A stretch of 64,000 nucleotides of DNA from Anaerorhabdus furcosa (GCF_900167375.1 NZ_FUWY01000001.1:310001-374000); one strand, 5' to 3'. Positions 13,808 through 52,913 are shown, counted from the first letter of the stretch. Made by a program: numbers and translations. Notes: generated from the sequence alone by a model not told the origin.

Positions 13808-15313
<1,506 letters not shown>

Positions 15314-15324
15314 CTAATAAAATA

Positions 15325-15549
15325 AAAAAACTCTTCACCCAATAGGGACGAGAGTTATCATCGTGGTACCACCCTAATTCATGATGCAATCACTTACATC
15401 ATCTTAGCGACTATTTAAAGTCATTCTTAACGCGAATTAACGTTCAACTCCAAGTCTTTATTCATTTATCATCCACTTGCCTAATCACACCAACCTAGGC
15501 TCTCTTGAAGTTACCTGATAAATTACTCTTCTTTTCATCATTGATTTAC
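15325..15549 (-). ncRNA. T-box riboswitch leader of lysS (probable lysine specifier)
   Basis: The minus strand holds the T-box core AGGGTGGTACCACG (15362-15375). A terminator stem follows: AACTCT at 15351-15356, AGAGTT at 15329-15334, then a run of Ts. Upstream is a stem I region with an AGAGAGCC element and a distal GGTGTGA loop. In the expected specifier position TGAATAAAGAC, the triplet AAA (15457-15459) is a lysine codon. Uncharged tRNA-Lys would pair and prevent termination. The T-box is clear; the exact specifier register is inferred. Confidence 0.9.
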
Positions 15550-33242: not shown

Positions 33243-36200
33243 TTATTCTTTTATCTCTATTTCTGATTCAATAGATGTTTCAGAAGAAACTGGAGTTTCT
33301 GTAGTAACTGGTTCTTCAGATGGAACTGGTTCTGGAATTATGCTTTCACCCAGTTCTTTTTCTTCTTCATCAGCTACTGGTAATGTAACTTCGTTATTCA
33401 TATCAAGATTCGTTGTTTGGGATATGTCAGAACTAACTCTAGTATACTTATCCGTTCCTTCAATCTTATGTCCATTTCCAATTTCAGAAAGCGAGTTCAC
33501 AGTCCACGTGCAATTAATCAATTGAACTATTGTTGCATCATCTCTCAAAAAGCCTACTAATGCACCTACTTTATCAGCACTTGGTCCTGTAACGGTGCCT
33601 GTTGCTGAACAGTTTTCAAGAATAGTGAAGATTTCATTTGTTCCTAGAACTTCACCAATTAAGCCTCCGATAGAAATATTATTAGCAGTTATGTAGTCTT
33701 CCAATGCATTAGAGCTTACATTTCCTGTTGATGAACTATCTTTAACACCTACTCCTCTGCTTAGAAACCCAACTAAGCCACCTACTTTACGTGTTCCTTC
33801 AACATTTACATTTGAAGAACAATTAATAATCATATAAGTAGAGCTATTTAATTCCCCTGTAAATCCAACTAATCCGCCTACATTATCACCTTCAAAGTTT
33901 GCAGCTAGATATATACCTCTTACAAAACTTGAAGAATCAACATCAACTCTACTATTGCTAACTGAACCATAACCTTGACCACCCAATCCACCTACTTTGT
34001 AGTTACCAACAATTTCAATATGCCCTTGCACAGCACAATTATCGATATCACCTGTAGAATAACTACCAATTATTGCACCTACATTTGCTTTACCAGTTAA
34101 GATTGCATTATTTATTGTAACGTTTTTAATTACTCCTGGTGTAATCATATTTCCAAACAAACCAGTTCCCAAATCAGAATTTTCGTTTGAACATGTTAAA
34201 TTAGATATTACTTTATTGTTTCCATCAAATGTACCCATAAAATGTTTCTCAGTTGTTCCTATTGGTGTCCAATTGAGATTACTCAAGTCAATATCATTTG
34301 ATAATTTGACTGTCTTTCCTTGGAATGTATTTCCATTATTTACGAGTTGAGCTAAACCAGCTAACTCCTTGGCATTTCTAAGTATGTATACTTCTTCATT
34401 TACATCATACCAATTTACATCAATATCTGTACCATTCCATGGTAAATTTATATTTTTATCATTTACCTTACCATATGTAACATTACCCGTTAGTTTAGCA
34501 TCAACTTCGATAATAAGTTCTGTGTCATCTTCAATTCTAACACTTGCTTCACTTGGAATGATCAACTCGCTATTTGCTTTTACAACAAATATGTTCTCAC
34601 CATCTTCATGTGTGTTTGATTCATTAAAACTATAATTCTTGGTTGCCATTTCAATAATTGCCTCATCTGGGAAAGCATATTGTAAGCCACCTAATAAACC
34701 TGTTTCATTTGATCCATAATAGTATCGATAAGTATTCCAACCTGTATTATGTCCATAATCAGAGTAAATAAAATCATTGGCACAATTTTGGTAACTATTT
34801 GATTTTGCTAAAGTTGCATAATCCAAAGTCAAATTAACTGTTTTAGTAGCTCCTTTTTTGTTATTCATGCCATCTAAAAATCCTAGACCTGCAGTAACAA
34901 TAATTCCTGAACTAGACCAATCTTCATTCTCATGCTGATAGCCAATAATTGTATTATTATTAATTACAACGTTAGTTGCTTTATCAGTTCCTGCATACAC
35001 TACAACTCCATTTGAAACTAATCCTGAAAGTTGTTTATTCGAATTAGAAACAAGTGTGTTATTTTCTAATGTGAATTGATTGGAAATAGCCCAAATAGCC
35101 GCCTTCCCTAGCAACGGTGTTGTTTCATTTAAATAGCCTTGATTGTGAATTTCCAAATCGCTAATTTTTATTCCATCTGCATTTAAGATAAATGAACCAT
35201 AAACTTCGCTTCCTGTTTCACCTTGAATTGTTGTTGCTGCATTAATCGAATATACTTTATAGTCTTGATCTGAACCAATAATACCTCTTACTTTTATGCT
35301 GTTTTTTTTGTTTGCTAACGCTTGTTCCAACTGTTGCTTAGTTTGTACTATGACTTCTGCCGATTTATCTGACATATAGAATGGCACAGTTTCTACAACA
35401 GTACTTCCACTAATAATTTTTGGATTTTCAATTTCTTTATCTTTTATAATTACTGTTCCAGTATTTTCAAAAGATTCAATTTTGACTTCAGCAACACTTG
35501 CCCATCCTGCTAAACTACCAGCATTAACTAAAGTAGCATTTACTGTTCCTTGATTTGAACAATCTTTAACAAATACGGTTGAATCATATCCACTTGTATT
35601 AATCACGTTATCTTTTTCCCAATATGGAAATTGATTTTTATCAATCGTTGAAGACCCTGAGAATTTTGATGTAGCTTCAACAATACTTCCCCAAATACCA
35701 CCTACATTTGATTGCCCTTGAATACTTACATTAGAACCAACTTTACAATCAATAAAACTATATACTGCATTATTATTGGCAATATTGTAATGGCGATAAT
35801 TCCACATTTGCCCAACAATTCCGCCAGCCGCCCATGACTCATCACTATACACAATACCTGCTTTTACCGTTCCATCAATAAGTTCAATATTTTCAAATGT
35901 TGAACCACCAAAACTATATGCCGCAACAACCGCTACACGACTTTCACCCGTAATTTCAAAATTTGAAAACTTCACATTTTTAATAGTAGCCTTACCCAAT
36001 GCACCAAAAAGCGCAGAACCATCATTGACTGTATCTCCATTGTTATAACATTTCAAACCACTAATTGTATGATTATTACCATTTAATGTTCCTAGGAATG
36101 TACGGTAATAAAACCAATAGTCTTTATAGTTTGAACCTGCATCTTGACCATCCAACGTAGCTCCACCTTTTGCATAGCGATACCCAATCGGTGTCCACTC

Positions 36201-37349
36201 TTTCTTATTTAAATTTATATCTGATCCTAAGTTGACAGTTTTACCTTCAAATGTAATTCCATCATTAACAAGTTTTCCAAAACCGGCAAATTGTGCACCT
36301 GTTGTAATCGTATAAGTAGTTGAACTTTCACTATACCAACTAGTATCTATTGTTTGTCCATCCCACGCAGTATCAACTGGTGGTGTCGTTGGATTCGGTG
36401 TTGACGCTGGTACTTCCGGAGTTGGGGTAGCTGTTGGCACCACAGTAGGAGTTATTGTAGGTTTTGGTGCTACCGTTGGTGTTGCAGAAGCAGTAGGTGT
36501 TGGTGTACTTATAGGATTATTTGTAACATCTTGAATTGGATTAGCACTCACAACTATGCTATCTGGTTTGATGTCCCCAGTAATATGTGTTGAATCAGTT
36601 GTTAAAACTGATGTGACTTTTCCCTCGCCTGATAAACCTACTTTTGTTTCTGTTGCTAAACTATTAACAACAACATCTTTCGATATTGTTAAATCAGTAT
36701 TTTTCGCATTTGCTGAAACCTTAACAATATCAATAGATGCTTCTATTTTCACTGTACTTTGTGCTTTCAAACTCAATTCGCCAATAGGTGATTGAACATG
36801 TAAACTTGTGGGAGCATTTACCTCAATAGTGGATACCTTTGCATTAGGTTGCACCATTACATTGCTACCACTACTTGTATCTTTAACATTAATGGAATTT
36901 ACCTCACCATTAACTTCGATATTAGAATTTTGCATTACCGTTACTTGATTAACTTTGGTGTTTTCTGAAACGACTATACGTACTGGATTGTTTACTTTAT
37001 TCGCTTCAATTTCATTAATAACACAATTATTAACATGGATTGAATTAAGTCCACCACCCTTTACAATTAATTTCCCTTGTATTGAAACATTATCTAAAGT
37101 GACGTTTCCTTCTCCAACCTTTTCATCGATAATTAAATCACCTTTGAAATTAACATTTTTAAGTGTAACTTCTGAAGCAGTAATTGTTCCTGTATCAAAC
37201 GAACCTGTTTCTTCATAGGATTTGGACTCATCATAAATCATTTCTGACGTTTTCTCATTGTTTGCTTTTTCATCTTTTTTCGTTGTACAGCCACTTAGCA
37301 AACTCAACCCCATCCCCAAACACAATACCAATGTAAATAATTTTTTCAT
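33243..37349 (-). CDS. Giant surface lipoprotein with beta-helix-like and GLUG-type repeats (paralog 1)
   Basis: This protein of about 1,368 residues has a lipoprotein signal ending LLSGC (Cys21). I chose the ATG at 37347-37349 (MKKLFTL), which has AAGGGGAAAG upstream. Residues of about 45-280 resemble a right-handed beta-helix domain (GDLIIDEKVGEGNVTLDNV...GKLIVKGGG). A Thr/Pro-rich linker of about 60 residues follows. Then a unit beginning WDGQTIDTSWY...WTPIG appears, and again near residue 1050, together with repeated VGGLVGF/GLFG segments typical of GLUG motifs. The C-terminus is acidic. It has no sortase or S-layer anchor, so only the lipid holds it. It follows paralog 2 on the same strand with a 120-base gap that has no riboswitch. 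Confidence 0.82.
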   Translation of the reverse strand: MKKLFTLVLCLGMGLSLLSGCTTKKDEKANNEKTSEMIYDESKSYEETGSFDTGTITASEVTLKNVNFKGDLIIDEKVGEGNVTLDNVSIQGKLIVKGGGLNSIHVNNCVINEIEANKVNNPVRIVVSENTKVNQVTVMQNSNIEVNGEVNSINVKDTSSGSNVMVQPNAKVSTIEVNAPTSLHVQSPIGELSLKAQSTVKIEASIDIVKVSANAKNTDLTISKDVVVNSLATETKVGLSGEGKVTSVLTTDSTHITGDIKPDSIVVSANPIQDVTNNPISTPTPTASATPTVAPKPTITPTVVPTATPTPEVPASTPNPTTPPVDTAWDGQTIDTSWYSESSTTYTITTGAQFAGFGKLVNDGITFEGKTVNLGSDINLNKKEWTPIGYRYAKGGATLDGQDAGSNYKDYWFYYRTFLGTLNGNNHTISGLKCYNNGDTVNDGSALFGALGKATIKNVKFSNFEITGESRVAVVAAYSFGGSTFENIELIDGTVKAGIVYSDESWAAGGIVGQMWNYRHYNIANNNAVYSFIDCKVGSNVSIQGQSNVGGIWGSIVEATSKFSGSSTIDKNQFPYWEKDNVINTSGYDSTVFVKDCSNQGTVNATLVNAGSLAGWASVAEVKIESFENTGTVIIKDKEIENPKIISGSTVVETVPFYMSDKSAEVIVQTKQQLEQALANKKNSIKVRGIIGSDQDYKVYSINAATTIQGETGSEVYGSFILNADGIKISDLEIHNQGYLNETTPLLGKAAIWAISNQFTLENNTLVSNSNKQLSGLVSNGVVVYAGTDKATNVVINNNTIIGYQHENEDWSSSGIIVTAGLGFLDGMNNKKGATKTVNLTLDYATLAKSNSYQNCANDFIYSDYGHNTGWNTYRYYYGSNETGLLGGLQYAFPDEAIIEMATKNYSFNESNTHEDGENIFVVKANSELIIPSEASVRIEDDTELIIEVDAKLTGNVTYGKVNDKNINLPWNGTDIDVNWYDVNEEVYILRNAKELAGLAQLVNNGNTFQGKTVKLSNDIDLSNLNWTPIGTTEKHFMGTFDGNNKVISNLTCSNENSDLGTGLFGNMITPGVIKNVTINNAILTGKANVGAIIGSYSTGDIDNCAVQGHIEIVGNYKVGGLGGQGYGSVSNSRVDVDSSSFVRGIYLAANFEGDNVGGLVGFTGELNSSTYMIINCSSNVNVEGTRKVGGLVGFLSRGVGVKDSSSTGNVSSNALEDYITANNISIGGLIGEVLGTNEIFTILENCSATGTVTGPSADKVGALVGFLRDDATIVQLINCTWTVNSLSEIGNGHKIEGTDKYTRVSSDISQTTNLDMNNEVTLPVADEEEKELGESIIPEPVPSEEPVTTETPVSSETSIESEIEIKE

Positions 37350-37431
37350 TTTCTTTCCCCTTTTCACTTTACTTAACACTCAAATAGCACATCATCAACT
37401 GCACAACTTTTTTGTGTTGCGTATACTTTTA

Positions 37432-37459
37432 AGAGAGCTTGCTTGGCAAACTCTCTTTT
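37432..37459 (-). terminator. Hairpin between lipoprotein paralogs 1 and 2
   Basis: AAGAGAG and CTCTCTT (37432-37459) pair around a 14-base loop. A weak terminator or processing hairpin; the T-run on the minus strand is short, so read-through from paralog 2 to paralog 1 is possible. Confidence 0.45.
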
Positions 37460-37470
37460 ACAATTACACT

Positions 37471-40400
37471 TTAAAAATTCAAATCTGTTTCATTAATTTG
37501 AGTTTCCGATTCCTGTGTTGTTTCAATTAAATCTGTTTCTTTATTTTCATCAGTTTGTTCACTATTTTCTTCAGGTACTAAATCAAGATCAGTTGGTACT
37601 GTGCTAGGTTGTAAAGATTTCACTTCCAGTACAACTTCTTCTTCCTCACCCCAAGAATCTACAGTTGCATTAAATCCAGGTGCGGATTCTGTAACTTCAA
37701 TAATTGCAGTTTTTGTCACACCTCGATGCGTTGCAGAAATTGTTGCTTTTCCTTTTGCTTTTGCGCTCACCAAACCATTTTGGTCAACTGTTGCAATATT
37801 TTCATTTGAAGATGACCACACAATTAAATTATTATTTGATTGCGGCTTTGTAAGCGTTAGTTGAACAGTTTCATTTACATTTAATTTATGTTCTGTAATA
37901 TCTAAACTTATACGATCATTTTCCAATGGAATATCGATACTTTGTGTTTCTTTTGTGATTTGCCCATTATAAATAACGATAATATCAACATATAGTTTAT
38001 CTACAGTATCCAACCAACCCACTGGCTGAACAGTACTTGGATTTGTCCAAGTTTGCCATGATGAACTTCCATTAGGTAAAGAATATCCAATGTTGGTTCC
38101 ATTTGTATCACCTAAATAGTTTCCATCCATATCTGCAAGATAACCACCCCAAAGTTTATTTTTAACTAGTGGGTTATTATTGCCAGTTGTTAACGGGTAG
38201 CTAACATCTCCTTGTTTATAGTAATATGTCAAAATAATATCATTACCTATTAGTTTTGCAGCATTTTGTACTACATTTGAATCACTGCTTGAAAGCAAAT
38301 TAGTATATTGTTCACTAACCATGTCAATACTTGTTAGCTGACTATTATAATTATCAAAAGTAAATCCTTTATCAAGTGTAAATCGAACAATTACGTTTTC
38401 TCCACGACGATATTCAACTTCAAAATTCGAAATAGTCACTGGATTTGTATCCAATAAGGAGTATACATCTCCAACTTGAACATTTGGATATTGATCATTA
38501 CTCTTTTTAGTAATTTCAAGAGTATTATCTTCTCGCAAAGTAAAATATACATTATTTGAATAACCCCCAATATACCGATTAAGAGTTTCTTGTTTTATAC
38601 TTCCATCAGCATTATATTCAATTTCATCAATTCTCAAATCACCAAAATTATTGTCACTTACTGCCACTTTATAATTTTCATCTTCATACTTAATTTGAAT
38701 TACTTCATTTGTATTTCTTTGATTTACGAAAGTACCTACTACGCCTAAATCAGGTTTTGGTAAACTTCCATTTTTCTTTAATATAATTTTATAACTTGTT
38801 GTCTTTCCATTTGGATTTTTTAATTCTACAATCAATTTATTTTGTCCATTTAATGATTGTTTTGGAACAATCGTAGTATCATTAGAAAAATTATAAATAG
38901 ATTGAGGTTCATTCATTGTATACAGTTTATATGTTGTATCACTACCAATTTGCGGGTTAACCTTAACAACAATAGATTCCATAGCATTCCAATCAATTTC
39001 ACCAATTCCTTCAAAGTAATAATCTCCATAGCCAGGATAGGTTGTATCAAAGTTTAAAATTTGATCATTTATCATAATCTTCGAATTGATGCTATCAACT
39101 GAATATTTACCTGTAATTTCATCAATAAAGAACGAATTCTCTAATAATATTAGTTTAAGGCTTTCCGCTGTTGTATTGTTATATTTCAAAATTTTTGTAT
39201 TACTTCCAGAAAAATTAACTAACATTTTGCTAGCTGATGTATATTCTCGACCAGCATTACCATAATCATTATTTAATTCTGTGATAATACAATTATTAAT
39301 AGTAATTTCTTTACTTGCAATATATAGTGGATTCTTTATTTCTTGATTATTTCTACCATTTATCGTTAGAGAATAGCTTCCTCCGTTTGTAGTTAATCCA
39401 ATTAATCTTAATCCAGTTTGTTCAACAAAATTATTAATAACTACTTCTGATGAAGAAGTACCAATATAACTACCTTCTGCAACTATACCTGCAAACCCAG
39501 TAATATTATCCCAAGTTCCTTTAACACTTCCATTATTTATACAGTCAGTTAGAACAATTCCATAATATTCTCCATCCACAAAATCTTCATTGCTTCTACC
39601 TCGACCAATAATTCCACCAGCAGCTCCTTTACCTACACCATTATAAATGGATTCGCTAGTTACTTCACCATTATTGACAGTTTGAATTATTTGCCCTGTA
39701 TATTCTCCCGCTATTCCTCCAACACTTGTTGGACTATTGCTGCTAAAGTTTGAATACACACGTCCGTTATTTGTACTATTTACAATTGCGTTGAATTGAA
39801 TTATATTTGGTGTTCTACTTGAAAAATGTCCAGTTCCAGCTATTCCTCCAACTGTTAAACCACCATTTACACTACCATTGTTTATACAATTTTCTATTGC
39901 ATAAACATTTGGGGTACCATCTTCTTGACTCATTTTTCCAACAATTCCGCCAGTTGATGTAACTCCATTAACTGTTCCATTATTCACACAATTTTTAATT
40001 GCAGACTGATTAGCTGCTACAAATTGACCAACAATTCCTCCAGTATTTCCTGCAGTACCATTTACGATTGCAACATTACTACAATTCAAAATAATTGATC
40101 CTTTTGTACTTAACCCCGCAATTCCTCCAACTTCTTTAGCAGTTACACTACCACTAGTTGTTGAATTACTAATTGTACTTGTATTCGTTATTTTTCCCGC
40201 AATTAATCCCGCACAATCGTTTGAATCTACACTAACATTACCTACTACATTCAAATTTTTTATAGTTCCATTTGAAACAACACTAAATAAACCTGTTGGA
40301 ATTGTTACATCGTCACTAGGTGACTTCGTAATATTTATATTTTTAATTACTAAATTATTTCCATCAAAAATACCTTTAAAAGAATTAGTATCTCCTTTAC

Positions 40401-41574
40401 CAATTGGAGTCCATTCAAAATTTGCTAAGTCAATATTAGCATTCAGCGTAATTATTTTATTTTCGAAACTATTTCCATCACTCACAAGTTGTGCTAAACC
40501 AGCAAGTTGATCTGCCTTATTAATAACAAATGAGTTAGTCGAATCGTTATACCACGAGCTATCAACAGTTGTACCATCCCATGCTGATGTAGGAATTGGT
40601 GTTGCTGTTGGTGCCGGTGTTGGATTAGAAGTTTCTGGTGTTGCTGTTGGTGCTTGTGTAGGTACCACTGTTGGTTTTGGTGTTGCAGGTTTTGGTGTTT
40701 GCGTTGCTACAGGCGTTGGTGTTGCCACTGCAACTTCTTTATTTGTATCCTGAATAGGATTCGTACTTACTGTGGTTGTATCTGCTTTTATATTACCTGT
40801 AACATTTGTTTTATCTGTTGTTAATACTGTTTGTAATTTTCCATCACCTGAAACATCTACTTTAGTCTCAGTTGCCAAGCTACCTACCACTGCATCTTTT
40901 CCCAAAGTGATAGCTGTATTTTGTGCATTTGAAGAAACAGTCACTGTAGTTACAGGTGCTTCAAGATTTACTTTACTTGCAGCTTTAATATCGAGTTGCC
41001 CAATTGGTGCCTTTGATGATAATTCAACAGTTGCATTTAGATCAACTTTTTTTATTTGTGCATTTTCTTTTATTTCAACAACACTTCCTGTTGAAGAAGA
41101 TGTTAATGAAAGATTTTTAATTTCACCTTGTACTTCGAGTTTAGTTTCACTTGCGATTTCTAGGTTATCCACTGATGTGTTTTCAGAAACGATAATACGC
41201 ACTTTCCCATCAGGTCGATTACTCGAAATAGAGTTAACTTTACTATTATCAATATGAACAGAGTTCTCTCCTCCACCATTAACAATTAATTGTCCTTTTA
41301 TTTCTACACCATCAAGAAATACATTTCCTTCTCCAACTTGCTTATCAATGATTAAGTCTTGTTCGAATGTTGTATTTTTAATTGTTACATCTTGCGCAAC
41401 TATTTTTCCTGACTCTAACTTTTCGTTTTCATAAGTTTTAGACTCATCAAAAAGCATTACAGTTTCTTTTTGATCTACAACTGCCGTTTCATCTTTTGGT
41501 TTATTGCTTGAACAACCTGTTAAAGTCGCAACAATAAGCAAAATACTCAAAAATTGTATTCCCAGTTTTTTCAT
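37471..41574 (-). CDS. Giant surface lipoprotein with GLUG-type repeats and Big2-like domain (paralog 2)
   Basis: This 1,367-residue protein has lipobox TLTGC (Cys21). The same beta-helix-like N-domain and Thr/Pro linker as in its two neighbours lead to WDGTTVDSSWY...WTPIG and then many GGIVG/GGIAG units (about residues 430-700), typical of GLUG repeats. A C-terminal domain shared with paralog 3 contains LYVDIIVIYNGQ. Near residues 1240-1320 a bacterial Ig-like group 2 domain is visible (NNLIVWSSSNENIATVDQNG). The tail is acidic. AAAGGAGA precedes the ATG. It is the gene directly downstream of an intact c-di-GMP-I riboswitch, so its expression should follow c-di-GMP levels. It is probably an adhesin or matrix protein, by inference. 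Confidence 0.85.
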   Translation of the reverse strand: MKKLGIQFLSILLIVATLTGCSSNKPKDETAVVDQKETVMLFDESKTYENEKLESGKIVAQDVTIKNTTFEQDLIIDKQVGEGNVFLDGVEIKGQLIVNGGGENSVHIDNSKVNSISSNRPDGKVRIIVSENTSVDNLEIASETKLEVQGEIKNLSLTSSSTGSVVEIKENAQIKKVDLNATVELSSKAPIGQLDIKAASKVNLEAPVTTVTVSSNAQNTAITLGKDAVVGSLATETKVDVSGDGKLQTVLTTDKTNVTGNIKADTTTVSTNPIQDTNKEVAVATPTPVATQTPKPATPKPTVVPTQAPTATPETSNPTPAPTATPIPTSAWDGTTVDSSWYNDSTNSFVINKADQLAGLAQLVSDGNSFENKIITLNANIDLANFEWTPIGKGDTNSFKGIFDGNNLVIKNINITKSPSDDVTIPTGLFSVVSNGTIKNLNVVGNVSVDSNDCAGLIAGKITNTSTISNSTTSGSVTAKEVGGIAGLSTKGSIILNCSNVAIVNGTAGNTGGIVGQFVAANQSAIKNCVNNGTVNGVTSTGGIVGKMSQEDGTPNVYAIENCINNGSVNGGLTVGGIAGTGHFSSRTPNIIQFNAIVNSTNNGRVYSNFSSNSPTSVGGIAGEYTGQIIQTVNNGEVTSESIYNGVGKGAAGGIIGRGRSNEDFVDGEYYGIVLTDCINNGSVKGTWDNITGFAGIVAEGSYIGTSSSEVVINNFVEQTGLRLIGLTTNGGSYSLTINGRNNQEIKNPLYIASKEITINNCIITELNNDYGNAGREYTSASKMLVNFSGSNTKILKYNNTTAESLKLILLENSFFIDEITGKYSVDSINSKIMINDQILNFDTTYPGYGDYYFEGIGEIDWNAMESIVVKVNPQIGSDTTYKLYTMNEPQSIYNFSNDTTIVPKQSLNGQNKLIVELKNPNGKTTSYKIILKKNGSLPKPDLGVVGTFVNQRNTNEVIQIKYEDENYKVAVSDNNFGDLRIDEIEYNADGSIKQETLNRYIGGYSNNVYFTLREDNTLEITKKSNDQYPNVQVGDVYSLLDTNPVTISNFEVEYRRGENVIVRFTLDKGFTFDNYNSQLTSIDMVSEQYTNLLSSSDSNVVQNAAKLIGNDIILTYYYKQGDVSYPLTTGNNNPLVKNKLWGGYLADMDGNYLGDTNGTNIGYSLPNGSSSWQTWTNPSTVQPVGWLDTVDKLYVDIIVIYNGQITKETQSIDIPLENDRISLDITEHKLNVNETVQLTLTKPQSNNNLIVWSSSNENIATVDQNGLVSAKAKGKATISATHRGVTKTAIIEVTESAPGFNATVDSWGEEEEVVLEVKSLQPSTVPTDLDLVPEENSEQTDENKETDLIETTQESETQINETDLNF

Positions 41575-41593
41575 GTTGTCTCTCCTTTATAAT

Positions 41594-41706
41594 ACAAAAA
41601 GTGTACCCGGCTATACCCAGTACACTTATGGTTCTTGTGCAACTGGCTACCATTTAACAGGCCCTATAGCTTTGTGCCCCTACCTTTCGATAGGTTTACC
41701 GATGAT
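41594..41706 (-). ncRNA. c-di-GMP-I (GEMM) riboswitch with intrinsic terminator
   Basis: The minus-strand aptamer reads GGTAAACCTATCGAAAGGTA, then GGGGCACAAAGCTATAGGGC, then CTG with a variable loop, then ATGGTAGCCAGTTGC. This matches the class I c-di-GMP aptamer, including the CGAAAG tetraloop, the CAAAGC element and the GCCAGTTGC 3-prime strand. A terminator follows at 41594-41627 (AAGTGTAC/GTACACTT with T-run). The lipoprotein gene starts 20 bases beyond. On or off sense cannot be decided by eye. Confidence 0.9.
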
Positions 41707-41718
41707 ATCTTTACTTTA

Positions 41719-41746
41719 ATTATACCAACTCAATTTATTATTACAA
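41719..41746 (-). promoter_or_regulatory. Promoter of the riboswitch-controlled lipoprotein gene
   Basis: TTGTAA (41741-41746) and TATAAT (41719-41724) are 16 bases apart; the -10 is extended by TGG. Transcription would begin a few bases before the aptamer. Confidence 0.7.
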
Positions 41747-41821
41747 GTAACAAATACAACTTTAAATGTAAGATACGACAAAGAAACATAACTCTCAGGG
41801 TTCGTTTTGATGCGTAAAATA

Positions 41822-41852
41822 GGAAAGGACAATCAAGTAGATTGTCCTTTCC
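41822..41852 (-). terminator. Terminator of lipoprotein paralog 3
   Basis: A perfect 13-bp stem (GGAAAGGACAATC at 41822-41834 with 41840-41852) and 5-base loop lies 32 bases after the stop codon. The minus strand continues with TATTTTA. Confidence 0.75.
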
Positions 41853-41883
41853 TTACAAAGTTTTCCCGATTTTAATCACATTT

Positions 41884-44800
41884 CTATTGATTTGAACTTT
41901 CTTCTTGATCGATAGAATCAAAAAGTATAGGTAAATCTTTCTCAATTTCATCTGTTTTTTCATTTGATTCATCTAAACTAGGTACACTCTCATCTAAATT
42001 TTGTGATCCCTCATTAATTTGATTAACTATTGTATCATTTGGAATTTCTACTGATACAGTTTTCTTTATTACTTTACCTTCCACAACTATTACAATATCA
42101 ACATATAATGATTTCCCCTTAACTGGATCTAACCATTTAGTTGCCACTGTTCCTATTTTTGGGTTTGTTGCGGTTAACCATGTTTTATTCGATAAAACCG
42201 TACTACCCAGCATTGTTCCGTTGATTATATTTCCATTAGGAATCGTAACAGTATTTGCTCCATCTTTATAAATTAAATACTCACTCCAAAACTTATTCTT
42301 CATTAAAGGAATTTGACTTCCTTGTAAATCAACTGTCATTAAAGGAATCTGATTGTTATCTTCAATATAATAGTAATAATAAATAATATCATTACCTAAT
42401 TTTCTTGCAGCTTGTTCCTGTTCAGTTTGTGTACCCGCTAGAATTTGAGCATAAAGAGTCGCAATATCCACTTCTGTTGGAGGTGTTAAAATGAACCCAC
42501 GGGTCAAATCAAATTGTACAACGATATCTTCACTCACCGGATTATATCGAATACTTTCATTTGAAATTGACGGTATGTTTAAATCAATTACATTTCCTTG
42601 TACCACTCCTGTTAATTTCCCACCTTCATTTATAACTAGTTCTGTATCATTTGTAATAATTGCATTTGCCGTTGTTGGAACTATTAACTCGCAGTTACTT
42701 TTGACAACGAAATTATTATTTAGTGATTCTCCTGTAACTTCTTTAGTAAATGTATAATTCCCCGGTGCTAATTCTACTTTACTATTCACTTTACTTGAAT
42801 ACATTAATCCATCTATTACTCCTTTTGGATTTGATGCAAATGTATATTTATAATATCCATCTTCTGCTTTTAATGAATAATCCGTATATACGAAATCATT
42901 ATAACAACTATAATAAGTATTTTGTTTTGCAATTGACGCATAATCGAGGGTTAGATTAACCGTTTTGCTTGAACCTTTTTTATTTGTAGTATCATAGGGG
43001 AAATATTGCCCTGCAGAGAATATCGTTCCCGTACTTGACCAATTGTCATTCTCATAGCTATAGCCTGTTATTTCATTATTCTCAATTCTTATATTTGTAT
43101 TGTTATCTGTTCCAGCTAACAAAACTATACCATTCGAAATCGCTTCTTCACCGTTAACTGTGTTCGATGAAATCAATTTGTTATTTGTTATTTCAACACG
43201 ATTCGATACTACAGTTATAGCATTTCTGCGTGCATCAACTGGATTGCCTGTTATCCATCCTTGATTGTGGATCTCTAATCCATTGATTTTGACATTATCC
43301 ACATCAATGATGAATGATCCATAGATTTTGCTATTAGTAGCTCCTAAAATTTCTTTAGTTTTAGTCACACGATAAATTGTATAATCACTGTCAGTTCCAA
43401 TTGTCCCTCTAATTTCAATCTTTGCTACATTGGATTTCAAAGCGTTCTCTAGTTGTTCTTTTGTTTGAACTATTGTTTTCGTTTCTTTATCCGATGCATA
43501 GAATGGAACTGAATTCACCACTGTATTTCCACTAATAATTTTTGGATTCATATCTTCACTATTTTTAACAAACACTTGCCCTTTATTTTCAAAAGATTTG
43601 ATATCAACCACTGAAGTATATGCCCATCCTGCTAAACTACCTGCATTTATATAAGATGCATAGATTTTACCTTCATTCTTACAATTATCAACAAATACAG
43701 TCGAATCATACCCCGTATAATTAACTGTGTCGGCTCCCTTCCAGTTTGGATATTCCGTTCTTGATGAAGCATCGAAACTTCCAATCTTCTTCGAACTAGC
43801 CTCTGTGATACTTCCCCACATACTTCCAACATTCGCTTCTCCACTAATTGTAACATTCGAATTTACAACAATGTTTTGAAATGAGTAGGTTGCATTATTT
43901 TTACCAACCGCATAGTGTGAGTAGTTCCACATTTGTCCAACAATTCCACCCACAGCCCACGATTTACATGTAGGATCTGTTGATTGAGGATCATTTACAT
44001 ACACTTGTCCATTGCTTAGAGTTATACCGTCAAATGTTGAACCACCTAATGCATATGCCGCAACAACAGCAACTCTACTTTCTCCACCGACATTAAATCC
44101 GTCAAAATTTAAGTTTTTAATTGTTGCATCACTGACAAATCCAAATAATGCGGCTCCATCATTTGCTGTCTTCGAATCATTATAAACTTTCAATCCTTTG
44201 ATTGTATAATTGTTTCCATTAAGTGTTCCTGAGAACGTGTTGTGATAAAACCAATATTGTGAGTAATTGCTACCCGCATCTTCATTTTTATATGTGGTTC
44301 CTGCACGTGCATATCTTAGTCCTATCGGGGTCCACAGTTTATTATTTAAGTCAATATCTCCACCCAAGTTAATCGTTTTCCCAGCAAAATTATTTCCTTC
44401 ATTAACCAACTGTCCAAATCCCGCAAGCTGTGCCCCATTATATAACGTAAATGTTGTTGATGCCGAATTATACCAACTGGTATCAATTGTTACTCCATCC
44501 CAAGGCAACTTAGAAACCGGCGGTTCCGTTGGTTGGGGTGTTGGATTAGAAATACCAGGTGTTTCTGTAGGTTTGGGTGTTTCTATAGATTTCGGAGTCT
44601 CTGTAGGCTTTGGTGTTGCAGGTTTTGGTGTATTTGTAATAGTTGGTGTAGGAGTTGTTGCTGCTGCACCTTTATTGATTGCATCTTGTATTGGCGTTGT
44701 ACTTACTGTTGTATTCTCAGGTTTAACATTGCCTGTCACAAAAGTTTTATCTGTTGTTACTACAGTTCCAAGTTTTCCTGTGCCCGATACATCCAGTTTT

Positions 44801-45510
44801 ACTTCTGTTCCTAGATTATTAACTACTGCATCTTTTTTTAAATCAATCGTTGTATTCTGAGCACTTGAAGAAACAGTAACTAAATTTACTGCCGATTCTA
44901 ACGTCACTTTGCTTTCTGCTTTTATCGCTAAGTGTTCAATTGGCGATTTAGCCGAAAGAACAACCGGAGCATTAATTTCTACTGTTTTAATTTTTGCTGT
45001 TTCACCAATATTAACCGAACTACTTGTTGCGTTTTGCGAAATCGAAAGAGTCTTCATCTCTCCATGAACTTCTAATTTAGTTACGCTATCAATATCTAGT
45101 AAATCTACTGATGAAGTTTCAGCGACTACAATACGAACAGTTCCCTCTACTCGATTGCTTGACACTGAATTGATTTTACTATTCTCAATGTGAATAGAAT
45201 TTTCTCCACCACCATTAACAATCAGTTTTCCTTTTACTTCAACTCCATCAAGATAAACATTTCCATCTCCAACTTTTTTATCAATAATTAAGTCTTTTTC
45301 AAAAGTCATGTTTTTCAATTTAACATCTTCGGCAGTGATTTCACCTGATTCCAATATCTTATTTTCATAAATTTTGGATTCATCAAATAACATAAATGTT
45401 GTTTTCTTATTTGCTTCATTCATTTCTTCTTTTGGGTTTGCATTTGTACACCCTGTTAAAACGGTTACTAACATAACTACGACAATCAAATAAATCCCTA
45501 ATCTTTTCAT
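41884..45510 (-). CDS. Giant surface lipoprotein with beta-helix-like and GLUG-type repeats (paralog 3)
   Basis: This 1,208-residue protein has lipobox VLTGC (Cys21). The N-terminal beta-helix-like domain is nearly parallel to those of paralogs 1 and 2, and a Thr/Pro/Lys linker leads into WDGVTIDTSWY...WTPIG. The middle block, which contains ESRVAVVAAYALGGSTF and PKIISGNTVV...SVPFYASDK, is shared with paralog 1. The C-terminal block (VRY-type beta region ending YVDIVIVVEGK) is shared with paralog 2. The three proteins therefore look like mosaics. GGAGGTAG precedes the ATG. The tail is acidic and ends ESSNQ. A diverged aptamer-like element lies in its leader. Confidence 0.82.
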   Translation of the reverse strand: MKRLGIYLIVVVMLVTVLTGCTNANPKEEMNEANKKTTFMLFDESKIYENKILESGEITAEDVKLKNMTFEKDLIIDKKVGDGNVYLDGVEVKGKLIVNGGGENSIHIENSKINSVSSNRVEGTVRIVVAETSSVDLLDIDSVTKLEVHGEMKTLSISQNATSSSVNIGETAKIKTVEINAPVVLSAKSPIEHLAIKAESKVTLESAVNLVTVSSSAQNTTIDLKKDAVVNNLGTEVKLDVSGTGKLGTVVTTDKTFVTGNVKPENTTVSTTPIQDAINKGAAATTPTPTITNTPKPATPKPTETPKSIETPKPTETPGISNPTPQPTEPPVSKLPWDGVTIDTSWYNSASTTFTLYNGAQLAGFGQLVNEGNNFAGKTINLGGDIDLNNKLWTPIGLRYARAGTTYKNEDAGSNYSQYWFYHNTFSGTLNGNNYTIKGLKVYNDSKTANDGAALFGFVSDATIKNLNFDGFNVGGESRVAVVAAYALGGSTFDGITLSNGQVYVNDPQSTDPTCKSWAVGGIVGQMWNYSHYAVGKNNATYSFQNIVVNSNVTISGEANVGSMWGSITEASSKKIGSFDASSRTEYPNWKGADTVNYTGYDSTVFVDNCKNEGKIYASYINAGSLAGWAYTSVVDIKSFENKGQVFVKNSEDMNPKIISGNTVVNSVPFYASDKETKTIVQTKEQLENALKSNVAKIEIRGTIGTDSDYTIYRVTKTKEILGATNSKIYGSFIIDVDNVKINGLEIHNQGWITGNPVDARRNAITVVSNRVEITNNKLISSNTVNGEEAISNGIVLLAGTDNNTNIRIENNEITGYSYENDNWSSTGTIFSAGQYFPYDTTNKKGSSKTVNLTLDYASIAKQNTYYSCYNDFVYTDYSLKAEDGYYKYTFASNPKGVIDGLMYSSKVNSKVELAPGNYTFTKEVTGESLNNNFVVKSNCELIVPTTANAIITNDTELVINEGGKLTGVVQGNVIDLNIPSISNESIRYNPVSEDIVVQFDLTRGFILTPPTEVDIATLYAQILAGTQTEQEQAARKLGNDIIYYYYYIEDNNQIPLMTVDLQGSQIPLMKNKFWSEYLIYKDGANTVTIPNGNIINGTMLGSTVLSNKTWLTATNPKIGTVATKWLDPVKGKSLYVDIVIVVEGKVIKKTVSVEIPNDTIVNQINEGSQNLDESVPSLDESNEKTDEIEKDLPILFDSIDQEESSNQ

Positions 45511-45565
45511 TCTTTGCTACCTCCACAATCGAAAAGTTGAATAATTCAGTAGTTATACAAGATTA

Positions 45566-45630
45566 TCCTGAGTAACTAGTTACCTTTTTAGGCCTTCAGC
45601 ATTTGTTTCACTGTTTTAATGTGTTTTGAT
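45566..45630 (-). ncRNA. Diverged c-di-GMP-I-like element (candidate)
   Basis: On the minus strand, GTGAAACAAATGCTGAAGG continues with CCTAAAAAGGTAACTAGTTA and CTC. This follows the layout of the 3-prime half of a class I c-di-GMP aptamer (CAAAGC, GG.CTAA, then a GGTA...GTTAC strand). The expected GAAA tetraloop in the first hairpin is absent (ATTAAAACA instead), and no terminator follows. It may be a decayed or variant riboswitch, or another structured leader. Confidence 0.4.
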
Positions 45631-46553
45631 TTTAATGTATTGGTTCTCTCTCAAAAAATCAATTATTTCTAAATTACCTTTAATTTATTATTTCTTTGAG
45701 ATACATTTATTCACGGGGATTATCGCATTAAAATTACAATACTACAATAGGATACCTTTTTGAATAAAACTTATTGTTATCTATTTACTTGTATTCTCTA
45801 TTTCCTTAAGTACCTTTCTTGCAGATTTCAAATTATTTCACATTTCAATTTCTTAGTTAAAAAATCTTACAAAAATTCGAACTCTTTTAAAATGATTTCT
45901 TTTAATTAATTATTGATATTTGTGGGTTCTATATATTGATAGCAAATACAAAATTTCTCTCTATTGAACACTATAACACTCGCATTTATATATTCATGCC
46001 CTTATCTAAATAACATTGATTCTTAGTACTATAAAAGTTACATTTAAATCAAATTGGAATTATTTAAGTAAGCAATCATCTTACTAAATTATCTCTCTAT
46101 TTTTCAAAACCATCTCGATGCTTTAACCCCATCCTAGTTCTTACTACCTCATATAAATCAAAATCCACTTGACTATCTATCCATAAGATATCATGATAAT
46201 TTTTATGCGAAAATGCATCTAAAAAAGACAGCACTTTTTGCGCTATCTTGATTTGTTTTTGTTGCCACACCTGTTATTTGTTTGTAATGAGGATTGATAA
46301 TATAAAGAGATGACGGTTCTTCATACTTCGAGATTTTCACTAAGCATTTCTCGCTAAAATGATTAGTATACAAACAGGCTGTGGCACGGGAGTTGGACAT
46401 TACGGGTATTGGTTTAAATTTGGGCTGTTTTAGAGAAAATCTAGGTATTGGTCATTCGGGTATTGGAATCTTATATTACTTTGGTAAGATTCACACATAT
46501 TTACAAGTTTCACTATGTTCATAGTTACTTCAAATTGCTAGATAGATATACAA
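45631..46553. other. Long region between riboswitch and paralog 3
   Basis: This 0.9-kb stretch holds the frameshifted remnant (46097-46400) and three copies of GGTATTGG (around 46405, 46444 and 46458; two are preceded by CGG). The rest is AT-rich with stops in all frames. A possible -35 TTGATT lies near 45656. Confidence 0.5.
46097..46400 (-). pseudogene. Frameshifted ORF remnant of unknown family
   Basis: A minus-strand frame from 46400 encodes a protein-like stretch (SEKCLVKISKYEEPSSLYII, then NPHYKQITGVATKTNQ) and then drifts to an early stop. A neighbouring frame continues sensibly from about 46240: IAQKVLSFLDAFSHKNYHDI, then LWIDSQVDFDLYEVV, ending HRDGFEK at a stop at 46097. Two coherent halves in different frames suggest one gene broken by a frameshift near 46235-46245. 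No ribosome site or clear start is seen. The family is not recognised. It stands downstream of an intact c-di-GMP riboswitch. Confidence 0.4.
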
Positions 46554-46675
46554 ACAAAAAAGTGCACTCATATCCAGTGCACTTTAAAAAGTAATTTATG
46601 TGCAACTGGCTGTCATTTTAAAGACCCTATAGTTTTGTGTCATCATCTTTCGATGATTTTACCTATTTAGTTTAT
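46554..46675 (-). ncRNA. Second c-di-GMP-I (GEMM) riboswitch with terminator, no intact gene behind it
   Basis: The minus-strand aptamer reads GGTAAAATCATCGAAAGATG, then ATGACACAAAACTATAGGGT, then CTTTAAAATGACAGCCAGTTGC. It has the CGAAAG tetraloop with an extended ATCAT/ATGAT stem, GGGTCT and the GCCAGTTGC strand, as in the 41.6-kb copy. The terminator is AAAGTGCACT (46559-46568) with AGTGCACTTT (46576-46585) plus T-run. The next intact gene on that strand begins about 1 kb away. Confidence 0.88.
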
Positions 46676-46681
46676 ATTTAT

Positions 46682-46711
46682 AGTATAACCTATATTCTAA
46701 CTCTTTTGCAA
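46682..46711 (-). promoter_or_regulatory. Promoter of the orphan riboswitch
   Basis: TTGCAA (46706-46711) and TATACT (46682-46687) lie 18 bases apart on the minus strand, immediately upstream of the aptamer. Confidence 0.6.
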
Positions 46712-51338: not shown

Positions 51339-52877
51339 TTATAGATGAATCGTTCGTACCTTTAGATTTTCCAAAAACAATCGATCATGACTTATTACAA
51401 CAATTGTTCCTTCAAATTTAGTTAAAACATCTTCAATGATTTCACAACTTAGTAAATCTAGATGATTGGTCGGCTCATCAAGTAAAATGCAATTACAACC
51501 TTTGAGCATAATTTCAAGTAGTTTCATTCGCACTTGTTCACCACCACTAAAACTAGAAATATAGCGATACATATCCACCTGATAAAATCCAAACCAAGCA
51601 AGATAACGTCTTGCTTTTTCTTCCTCCAAATTGCAGACTCTTATAAAATAATCAAGTATTCTTTCCGAATCATTTTCAAATTTAATAATTTGTGGTAAAT
51701 ATCCCACATCTACCGTTTGTCCAAATTGAATTGTTCCCCCAAGTGGTTTTACTTCACCCAGTAATGTTTTAAATAATGTAGTTTTACCTGTGCCATTTGG
51801 TGCTACAATCGCAACCCTTTCTTTTCTTTGAATTATAAAGTTCAAAGGATTACATAAAGGCGCATCATATCCAATGAATAAATCATTTGCGATAATTACA
51901 TCTTTACTACCTACTTGCGTACTTTTTAAATCAAAAGTAAGTTTGTTTCTAATTTCAGTTGGCTTGGGTAGTTTTTCAATTCTCTCTAATCTTTTTTCTA
52001 ATGCTTTTGCTCGTTTAAAGAAATCTTCATTATCACCTTCGTGGCCCCATTGACGATATCTTCTAATAGCGAGTTTAATTTTTGATATTTCTTTTTGTTG
52101 CTGTTCATAGTCAAGTACTAATCGCAAATAACGTTCATGTCTTTGATTACGATAACTATCATATGATCCATAATAAGTTACAACTTGACCATCTTCGATT
52201 TCATAGAACACAGAAACTACATTCATTAAAAACTGACGATCATGTGAAACTAAAATAAGAGTTTTATTTGTTGTCTTACAATAGTTCTCTAACCATTCAA
52301 TTCCATTCATATCTAGATGATTAGTTGGTTCATCCAAACAGAGAACTTCAACATCTTGTAGTAAGAGTTGAACTAAAACAATTCTAGTTTTTTGCCCACC
52401 ACTGAGTGTATCAAAGGGTTGCTCAAGAACATCATCAATGCCTAATCCCTTAGCGTAGGCTTCCAATGAATTTTCCAAATTATACCCCCCGGCATTCTCA
52501 AACTTGTCCATGACCTTTGCATACTCATTTAAAACTTCCTCAGTCATGTTCTCACTACTCATTCTTTTTTCTATACTTTTTAATTGTTGTTGATAGGTTA
52601 AGTATTCTTCAAAGCATGACAAAATATAGTTTCTACTGGTATCAGTATAATTAGGAAATACTTGAACCATATATCCAATATTCATTTCTCTTGGTATGAA
52701 AATTGATCCTCCCTGGATGTTTTCAATTCCTGCAATAATTTTAAGTAAAGTAGATTTACCTGATCCATTTTCACCAACAATCGCACATTTACTACCTTTA
52801 ATGATTTCAAGCGATAAGTCATCTAAGACAATTTCACCTGTATATGATTTTACTATATTATTAATTTGTATTTTCAT
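51339..52877 (-). CDS. ABC-F family ATPase, probable ribosome-protection protein
   Basis: This protein of about 512 residues has two ABC domains and no membrane segment. The first has Walker A GENGSGKST and signature TLSGGQKT; the second has APNGTGKTT and SFSGGEQV. Walker B motifs end LDEPTNHLD in both. The linker between domains is charged and helical (about residues 230-300), as in antibiotic-resistance ABC-F proteins that displace drugs from the ribosome (Lsa/Vga/Vml type). I chose the ATG at 52875-52877, with GGAGGAG 7 bases upstream, over one 15 bases earlier. A leader peptide and a terminator upstream indicate drug-induced attenuation. Which drugs is unknown. Confidence 0.9.
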   Translation of the reverse strand: MKIQINNIVKSYTGEIVLDDLSLEIIKGSKCAIVGENGSGKSTLLKIIAGIENIQGGSIFIPREMNIGYMVQVFPNYTDTSRNYILSCFEEYLTYQQQLKSIEKRMSSENMTEEVLNEYAKVMDKFENAGGYNLENSLEAYAKGLGIDDVLEQPFDTLSGGQKTRIVLVQLLLQDVEVLCLDEPTNHLDMNGIEWLENYCKTTNKTLILVSHDRQFLMNVVSVFYEIEDGQVVTYYGSYDSYRNQRHERYLRLVLDYEQQQKEISKIKLAIRRYRQWGHEGDNEDFFKRAKALEKRLERIEKLPKPTEIRNKLTFDLKSTQVGSKDVIIANDLFIGYDAPLCNPLNFIIQRKERVAIVAPNGTGKTTLFKTLLGEVKPLGGTIQFGQTVDVGYLPQIIKFENDSERILDYFIRVCNLEEEKARRYLAWFGFYQVDMYRYISSFSGGEQVRMKLLEIMLKGCNCILLDEPTNHLDLLSCEIIEDVLTKFEGTIVVISHDRLFLENLKVRTIHL

Positions 52878-52913
52878 TTTTTTCTCCTCCATAATTGTGA
52901 AGGAATTGCATAA

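Follow-up and report, generated by a model that had tools for sequence, protein, structure and literature searches.

In a 64,000-nucleotide stretch of the Anaerorhabdus furcosa genome (GCF_900167375.1 NZ_FUWY01000001.1:310001-374000; called the window here, with all coordinates window-based), the region 33243-46711 carries three tandem genes for giant lipoproteins (A, B and C) and two class I cyclic di-GMP (c-di-GMP) riboswitches (RS1 and RS2). The N-terminal domain (N-domain) of the proteins is homologous to CBM-54 in sequence, and the explanation of the locus that we favour, giving it about an even chance, is that it encodes lipid-anchored and probably self-cleaving CBM-54 stalk proteins, of which at least B is under the control of a class I OFF switch. 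The parts of this arrangement are known, while the combination and the predicted sign of control are new. The three genes are:

41884..45510, minus strand: gene A, lipoprotein of 1208 residues (open reading frame (ORF), lipobox Cys21)
37471..41574, minus strand: gene B, lipoprotein of 1367 residues with GLUG-like repeats and a Big_2 domain (ORF, Cys21, PF02368)
33243..37349, minus strand: gene C, lipoprotein of 1368 residues with GLUG motifs (ORF, Cys21, PF07581)

A CBM-54-type N-domain with a cleavage motif

The signal peptides of A, B and C end in the lipoboxes LTGC, LTGC and LSGC, each with Cys21 (Pfam LPAM_1 stays below its cut-off in B). The N-domains align almost without gaps over about 270 residues, with 46% and 64% identity to A, and are followed by linkers consisting of 55-63% Thr, Pro and Ser; the WDG..SWY and WTPIG blocks occur once each in A and B and twice in C. 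A preliminary description of this DNA had proposed three tandem paralogs with these lipoboxes, linkers and blocks and a homologous, beta-helix-like N-domain, and all of this holds. The features of the N-domains are:

44683..45399, minus strand: CBM-54-type beta-helix of A, residues 38-276 (5gzt match, AlphaFold model)
45190..45213, minus strand: self-cleavage motif GGGENSIH of A, with Asn104 and Ser105 (motif of PMC5132251)
41254..41277, minus strand: self-cleavage motif GGGENSVH of B (motif match)
37035..37058, minus strand: self-cleavage motif GGGLNSIH of C (motif match)

When a profile of the three N-domains was searched against the PDB, it matched 5gzt_A, from ChiW of Paenibacillus, with E=3.7e-9, and the match ends at GGGEN, the last residue being the cleavage Asn. 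Chains A and B of 5gzt are the products of cleavage of the ChiW CBM-54 beta-helix at Asn|Ser; the polysaccharides to which this domain binds are chitin, glucan, xylan and cellulose (PMC5132251). All three proteins pass the CBM-54 cleavage motif tested, G-G-G-X-[NQDH]-S-[VI]-[HKLNYV], and by alignment they retain the equivalents of His285 and Arg304 of ChiW. The AlphaFold model of the N-domain is a confident right-handed parallel beta-helix (pLDDT 88, pTM 0.82), with which Foldseek found 5gzt_B as the top match (probability 1.00) and also 5gzt_A (0.93), and VIA comparison with 5gzt gave a Z of 14.2 and a root mean square deviation of 2.2 over 140 residues. Higher VIA Z values were obtained for other beta-helices, the highest for autotransporter passengers, and the CBM-54 assignment therefore rests on sequence and motif. 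It is probable that the N-domain cleaves itself at Asn|Ser, and the three proteins probably bind polysaccharide.

CBM-54 relatives are rare around this organism, being found in 4 of 395 genomes of the class and 3 of 392 of the phylum, the genome studied here included. The motif is present also in lipoprotein-like proteins of genomes G020 and G171 and in a protein of G012 with an N-terminal membrane segment. In G006 and G024 (loci L042, L047 and L048-L055) several proteins join choline-binding-type repeats to a related beta-helix; these have no GGGxNS motif, the G024 loci being partly masked.

Some observations count against the favoured explanation. The match to 5gzt_B (E=0.039) is weak alone; it begins at SVH and is collinear with that to 5gzt_A. 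Asp262 of ChiW is replaced by Asn in the window proteins, Asn being among the accepted variants, and for ChiW itself self-cleavage, as opposed to cutting by a protease, is not proven (PMC5132251). Elsewhere, CBM-54 relatives were without a riboswitch at the six loci tested. It is conceivable, with perhaps one chance in three, that the N-domain neither cleaves nor binds sugar but stays intact, as a rigid beta-helix spacer holding the passenger clear of the membrane. The fold is a generic right-handed beta-helix closest by Z to autotransporter passengers, the CBM-54 of ChiW itself has no aromatic patch (PMC5132251), and the related proteins of G006 and G024 have the fold although they lack the motif, all of which would suit a spacer. 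Against a mere spacer stands the conservation of the cleavage-site residues (GGG, Asn, Ser, His and Arg) in the three paralogs and in the proteins of G012, G020 and G171.

Class I riboswitches and the sign of control

Both riboswitches exceed the RF01051 gathering score of 35 bits when the window is scanned with cmscan, as was foreseen for the two regions from the sequence, and an aptamer followed by a terminator indeed lies immediately before the second paralog. Their elements are:

46598..46673, minus strand: RS1, class I c-di-GMP aptamer (RF01051, 62.0 bits)
41635..41710, minus strand: RS2, class I c-di-GMP aptamer (RF01051, 55.3 bits)
46600..46609, minus strand: RS1 aptamer 3' strand CCAGTTGCAC, predicted antiterminator strand (complementary to terminator 5' arm 46574-46582)
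41637..41646, minus strand: RS2 aptamer 3' strand CCAGTTGCAC, predicted antiterminator strand (complementary to terminator 5' arm 41617-41625)
46559..46585, minus strand: RS1 intrinsic terminator (10-pair stem and T tract)
41599..41627, minus strand: RS2 intrinsic terminator (stem of -15.9 kcal/mol and T tract)
46682..46711, minus strand: promoter-like site before RS1, TTGCAA, 18 nucleotides, TATACT (consensus match only)
41719..41746, minus strand: promoter-like site before RS2, TTGTAA, 16 nucleotides, TATAAT (consensus match only)

RS1 and RS2 are the sole RF01051 matches in the 2.41 Mb genome, and a search of the genome for c-di-GMP-II gave no match, a negative that carries no weight, since none of the control genomes matched either. 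The genome encodes 21 GGDEF and 9 EAL domains, counts that point to a developed c-di-GMP network. In the aligned sequences both aptamers retain the equivalents of G20, A47 and C92, which we take to be the pocket positions in the Vc2 numbering, and these residues fit c-di-GMP as the ligand. A riboswitch of the cyclic GMP-AMP type (A20) is ruled out for both by the retained G20. The two units are homologous with the terminator included (137 of 182 aligned bases identical in alignment, with a score of 171.5 where shuffled sequences reached at most 116), and a compensated pair distinguishes their terminator stems, GTGCAC/GTGCAC versus GTGTAC/GTACAC.

The terminators start 12 (RS1) or 7 (RS2) nucleotides past the aptamer and have no overlap with it. 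Their 5' arms, GUGCACUGG or GUGUACUGG, are complementary to the aptamer 3' strand CCAG-U-UGCAC with nine pairs and one bulge, and in context this antiterminator has an energy of -14.4 kcal/mol in RS1 and -15.8 kcal/mol in RS2, equalled by 2/200 and 0/200 shuffles. As six of the ten bases of the strand pair inside the aptamer, aptamer and antiterminator are mutually exclusive. In length-by-length folding the antiterminator prevailed until the terminator was complete, and folding with an assumed ligand bonus of 10 kcal/mol led to aptamer plus terminator. Both platforms look like an OFF design, with expression at low c-di-GMP, which is opposite to the sign implied by the preliminary description, where the adhesins would be made at high c-di-GMP. 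What speaks against the OFF design is that full-length equilibrium folding favours the terminator even without ligand; the switch must therefore work kinetically, and most transcripts could end at the terminator. The ON and OFF calls, here and below, were made without a control switch of known sign and are unreliable where the best terminator is weaker than about -8 kcal/mol.

RF01051 is present in 41 of the 272 genomes of the family, and among the 52 other switches that served as the comparison set many precede large secreted proteins. A clear ON design, in which the aptamer's 3' strand doubles as the 5' arm of the terminator, was seen before proteins of 1609 (G325), 1612 (G067), 1428 and 886 (G036), 1110 and 1099 (G071) and 1653 residues (G340), several of which run off their stretch, and an OFF-like architecture in G030 (929 residues) and in switches of G058. 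Class I control of giant surface proteins is thus usual within the family, and its sign varies. Tandem arrays of two or three class I aptamers about 130 bases apart (L093, L096, L097 and L099, in G007, G036, G061 and G078) precede a single gene whose secreted product has 278-402 residues, and in G343 (L101) a class I aptamer lies closely upstream of type IV prepilin-like genes (GFTFVEVIIAMAIFA).

The ON platforms before giant secreted proteins in these five genomes would agree with a classical role, in which c-di-GMP turns adhesins on for sessile adhesion, as with CD2831 and CD3246 of Clostridioides difficile or many of the family switches. The C. difficile adhesins are raised by c-di-GMP via class II switches, whereas the class I switches of that species are OFF (PMC11477304), and in RS1 and RS2 the terminator has no overlap with the aptamer and it is the antiterminator that uses the aptamer strand. 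We therefore regard an ON sign here as unlikely. The genome yielded no flagellin, and a low c-di-GMP level therefore does not have to go with flagellar motility in this organism.

Reach of control

RS2 is followed within 60 nucleotides by its terminator, a Shine-Dalgarno sequence and the start codon of B, and by position its control of B is direct. C begins 121 nucleotides after B; the intervening hairpin has no T tract and the terminator scan found none, so read-through into C is possible and C may be cotranscribed with B.

The extension of control to A meets an obstacle in the distance, since RS1 and A are not adjacent but separated by a gap of 1.09 kb. The gap consists of about 1 kb of apparently non-coding DNA (45530-46560, minus strand) with one internal hairpin:

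46225..46249, minus strand: second terminator-like hairpin between RS1 and A (10-pair stem and T tract)

Because of the gap and this second terminator, control of A by RS1 is unproven, and position supports control only for B. The preliminary description of the cluster as controlled by a second messenger thus stands for B but not for all three genes. The ORF debris at 46097-46400 belongs to no Pfam or NCBIfam family, and there is no second copy of the spacer in the genome. An intron or other RNA was also considered for the spacer and rejected, no family scoring above gathering (Atu_C9, 19.8 versus 40 bits, is taken as a chance match).

These same features, the distance, the hairpin at 46249-46225 and the familyless debris, would suit a reading in which A is transcribed from a promoter of its own, while RS1 drives only a short transcript or a decayed gene ending at 46225. 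The duplication of RS1 and RS2 extends, however, over the entire unit, and the sister protein of A is B, which makes an ancestral link between RS1 and A likely; RS1-A is probably a duplicate of the RS2-B unit that was later split by about 1 kb. On balance we consider the chances that RS1 does or does not control A today to be equal.

Proposed mechanism

According to the explanation favoured here, the products of the cluster would be three proteins anchored by lipid at the cell surface, with polysaccharide as their probable ligand. The CBM-54-type N-domain would cut itself at Asn|Ser within GGGxNS(I/V)H, leaving about 84 residues on the lipid, while the passenger, which has about 1,100-1,270 residues and consists of a GLUG-type beta-helix, immunoglobulin (Ig)-like parts and an acidic tail, would be held non-covalently by stacking of the beta-helix. 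Through such non-covalent attachment the passenger could be shed. B, and perhaps C via read-through, would be under a class I transcriptional OFF switch. Without ligand, the aptamer 3' strand would pair with the terminator 5' arm and transcription would continue; with c-di-GMP, the aptamer would retain its 3' strand, the terminator would form and the gene would be silent. A more far-reaching version, that the locus is the whole class I RNA regulon and a c-di-GMP-repressed, sheddable display of giant polysaccharide-binding passengers on self-cut, lipid-anchored helices, is speculative and on present evidence rather improbable.

The earlier proposal of a c-di-GMP-regulated surface adhesion or matrix system is borne out in so far as the aptamers, the GGDEF and EAL domains, the lipoboxes and the homology of the beta-helix to a module that binds polysaccharide point to c-di-GMP-linked, lipid-anchored surface proteins, for which an adhesion or matrix function is plausible. 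Anchoring by lipid alone agrees with the lipoboxes and with the lack of an LPxTG-like sorting signal in A, B and C (the genome does encode one sortase), but misses the likely self-cleavage site in the N-domain.

Comparison with known systems

A close likeness is to the CBM-54 of ChiW (Paenibacillus sp. FPU-7) and Lic16A (Clostridium thermocellum), which have a homologous right-handed beta-helix and GGGxNS(I/V)H near the N-terminus of a surface protein (PMC5132251), followed, as in A, B and C, by a linker and a large passenger. ChiW differs in being SLH-anchored and in having two GH18 catalytic domains, whereas the present system combines a lipobox with GLUG and Ig-like parts and a c-di-GMP riboswitch, and no enzyme is recognised in it. 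CwpV of C. difficile is likewise a large self-cleaving surface protein whose fragments stay associated (PMC5132251), but its cleavage is Thr-based, its sequence unrelated and its anchoring to the cell wall. In GLUG-motif surface proteins (PF07581, M26_N-like) the resemblance lies in the GLUG motifs of C and in the weak similarity of C and B to M26_N and 3n6z, with no peptidase domain recognised.

In regulation, the class I switches of C. difficile have the same RF01051 aptamer with an intrinsic terminator and are of the OFF type, class II being ON (PMC11477304). There, 12 class I and 4 class II switches serve many functions, whereas here two copies are found at one lipoprotein locus. CD2831 and CD3246 with PPEP-1 are large c-di-GMP-controlled surface proteins that can be released by cleavage, but they have class II ON switches and are cut by a separate protease, while the present locus has class I switches of OFF type, and its proteins have a putative built-in cleavage site and no LPxTG-like motif.

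Other features of the proteins and the window

The paralogs are mosaic: the identity of 50% between A and C extends to about A residue 979, while with B it is a C-terminal part that A has in common (38% identity, A residues 973-1177). GLUG (PF07581) is above the gathering cut-off only in C (29.2 versus 20.5 bits, three stretches), A and B failing it; Big_2 is found in B and no Pfam family in A, and Pfam and NCBIfam searches recognised no enzyme domain in the three proteins. For C, an ATG with a Shine-Dalgarno sequence gives 1368 residues and the listed upstream GTG at 37379 gives 1378. The full-length AlphaFold model of A has a mean pLDDT of 49, with the N-domain alone reliable, and no fold is claimed for the remainder. 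No further paralog was found elsewhere in the genome, and a scan of the whole genome collection with A gave just two matches, both weak (28-33% identity) and confined to the region that follows the linker.

The cluster is flanked by feoB on one side and rpsL-rpsG-fusA-tuf on the other (fusA called by sequence inspection), genes with no obvious functional link to the lipoproteins. The window also contains a T-box leader (103.9 bits; 15341-15547, minus strand) immediately before lysS (13808-15304), which encodes a lysyl-tRNA synthetase of class II type, and an ABC-F protein (51339-52892, minus strand) scoring 413.5 bits against the cut-off of 380 of a ribosomal-protection-like family.

Significance

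If the explanation is true, the locus would unite lipid anchoring and a self-cleaving CBM-54 helix with a c-di-GMP OFF switch of class I, a combination not found in the sources searched, and CBM-54 would reach beyond SLH-anchored enzymes to lipoproteins in which no catalytic domain is recognised. Control of surface polysaccharide binding by c-di-GMP would then be opposite to what is expected of adhesins, and the locus would offer a compact and testable case of it.

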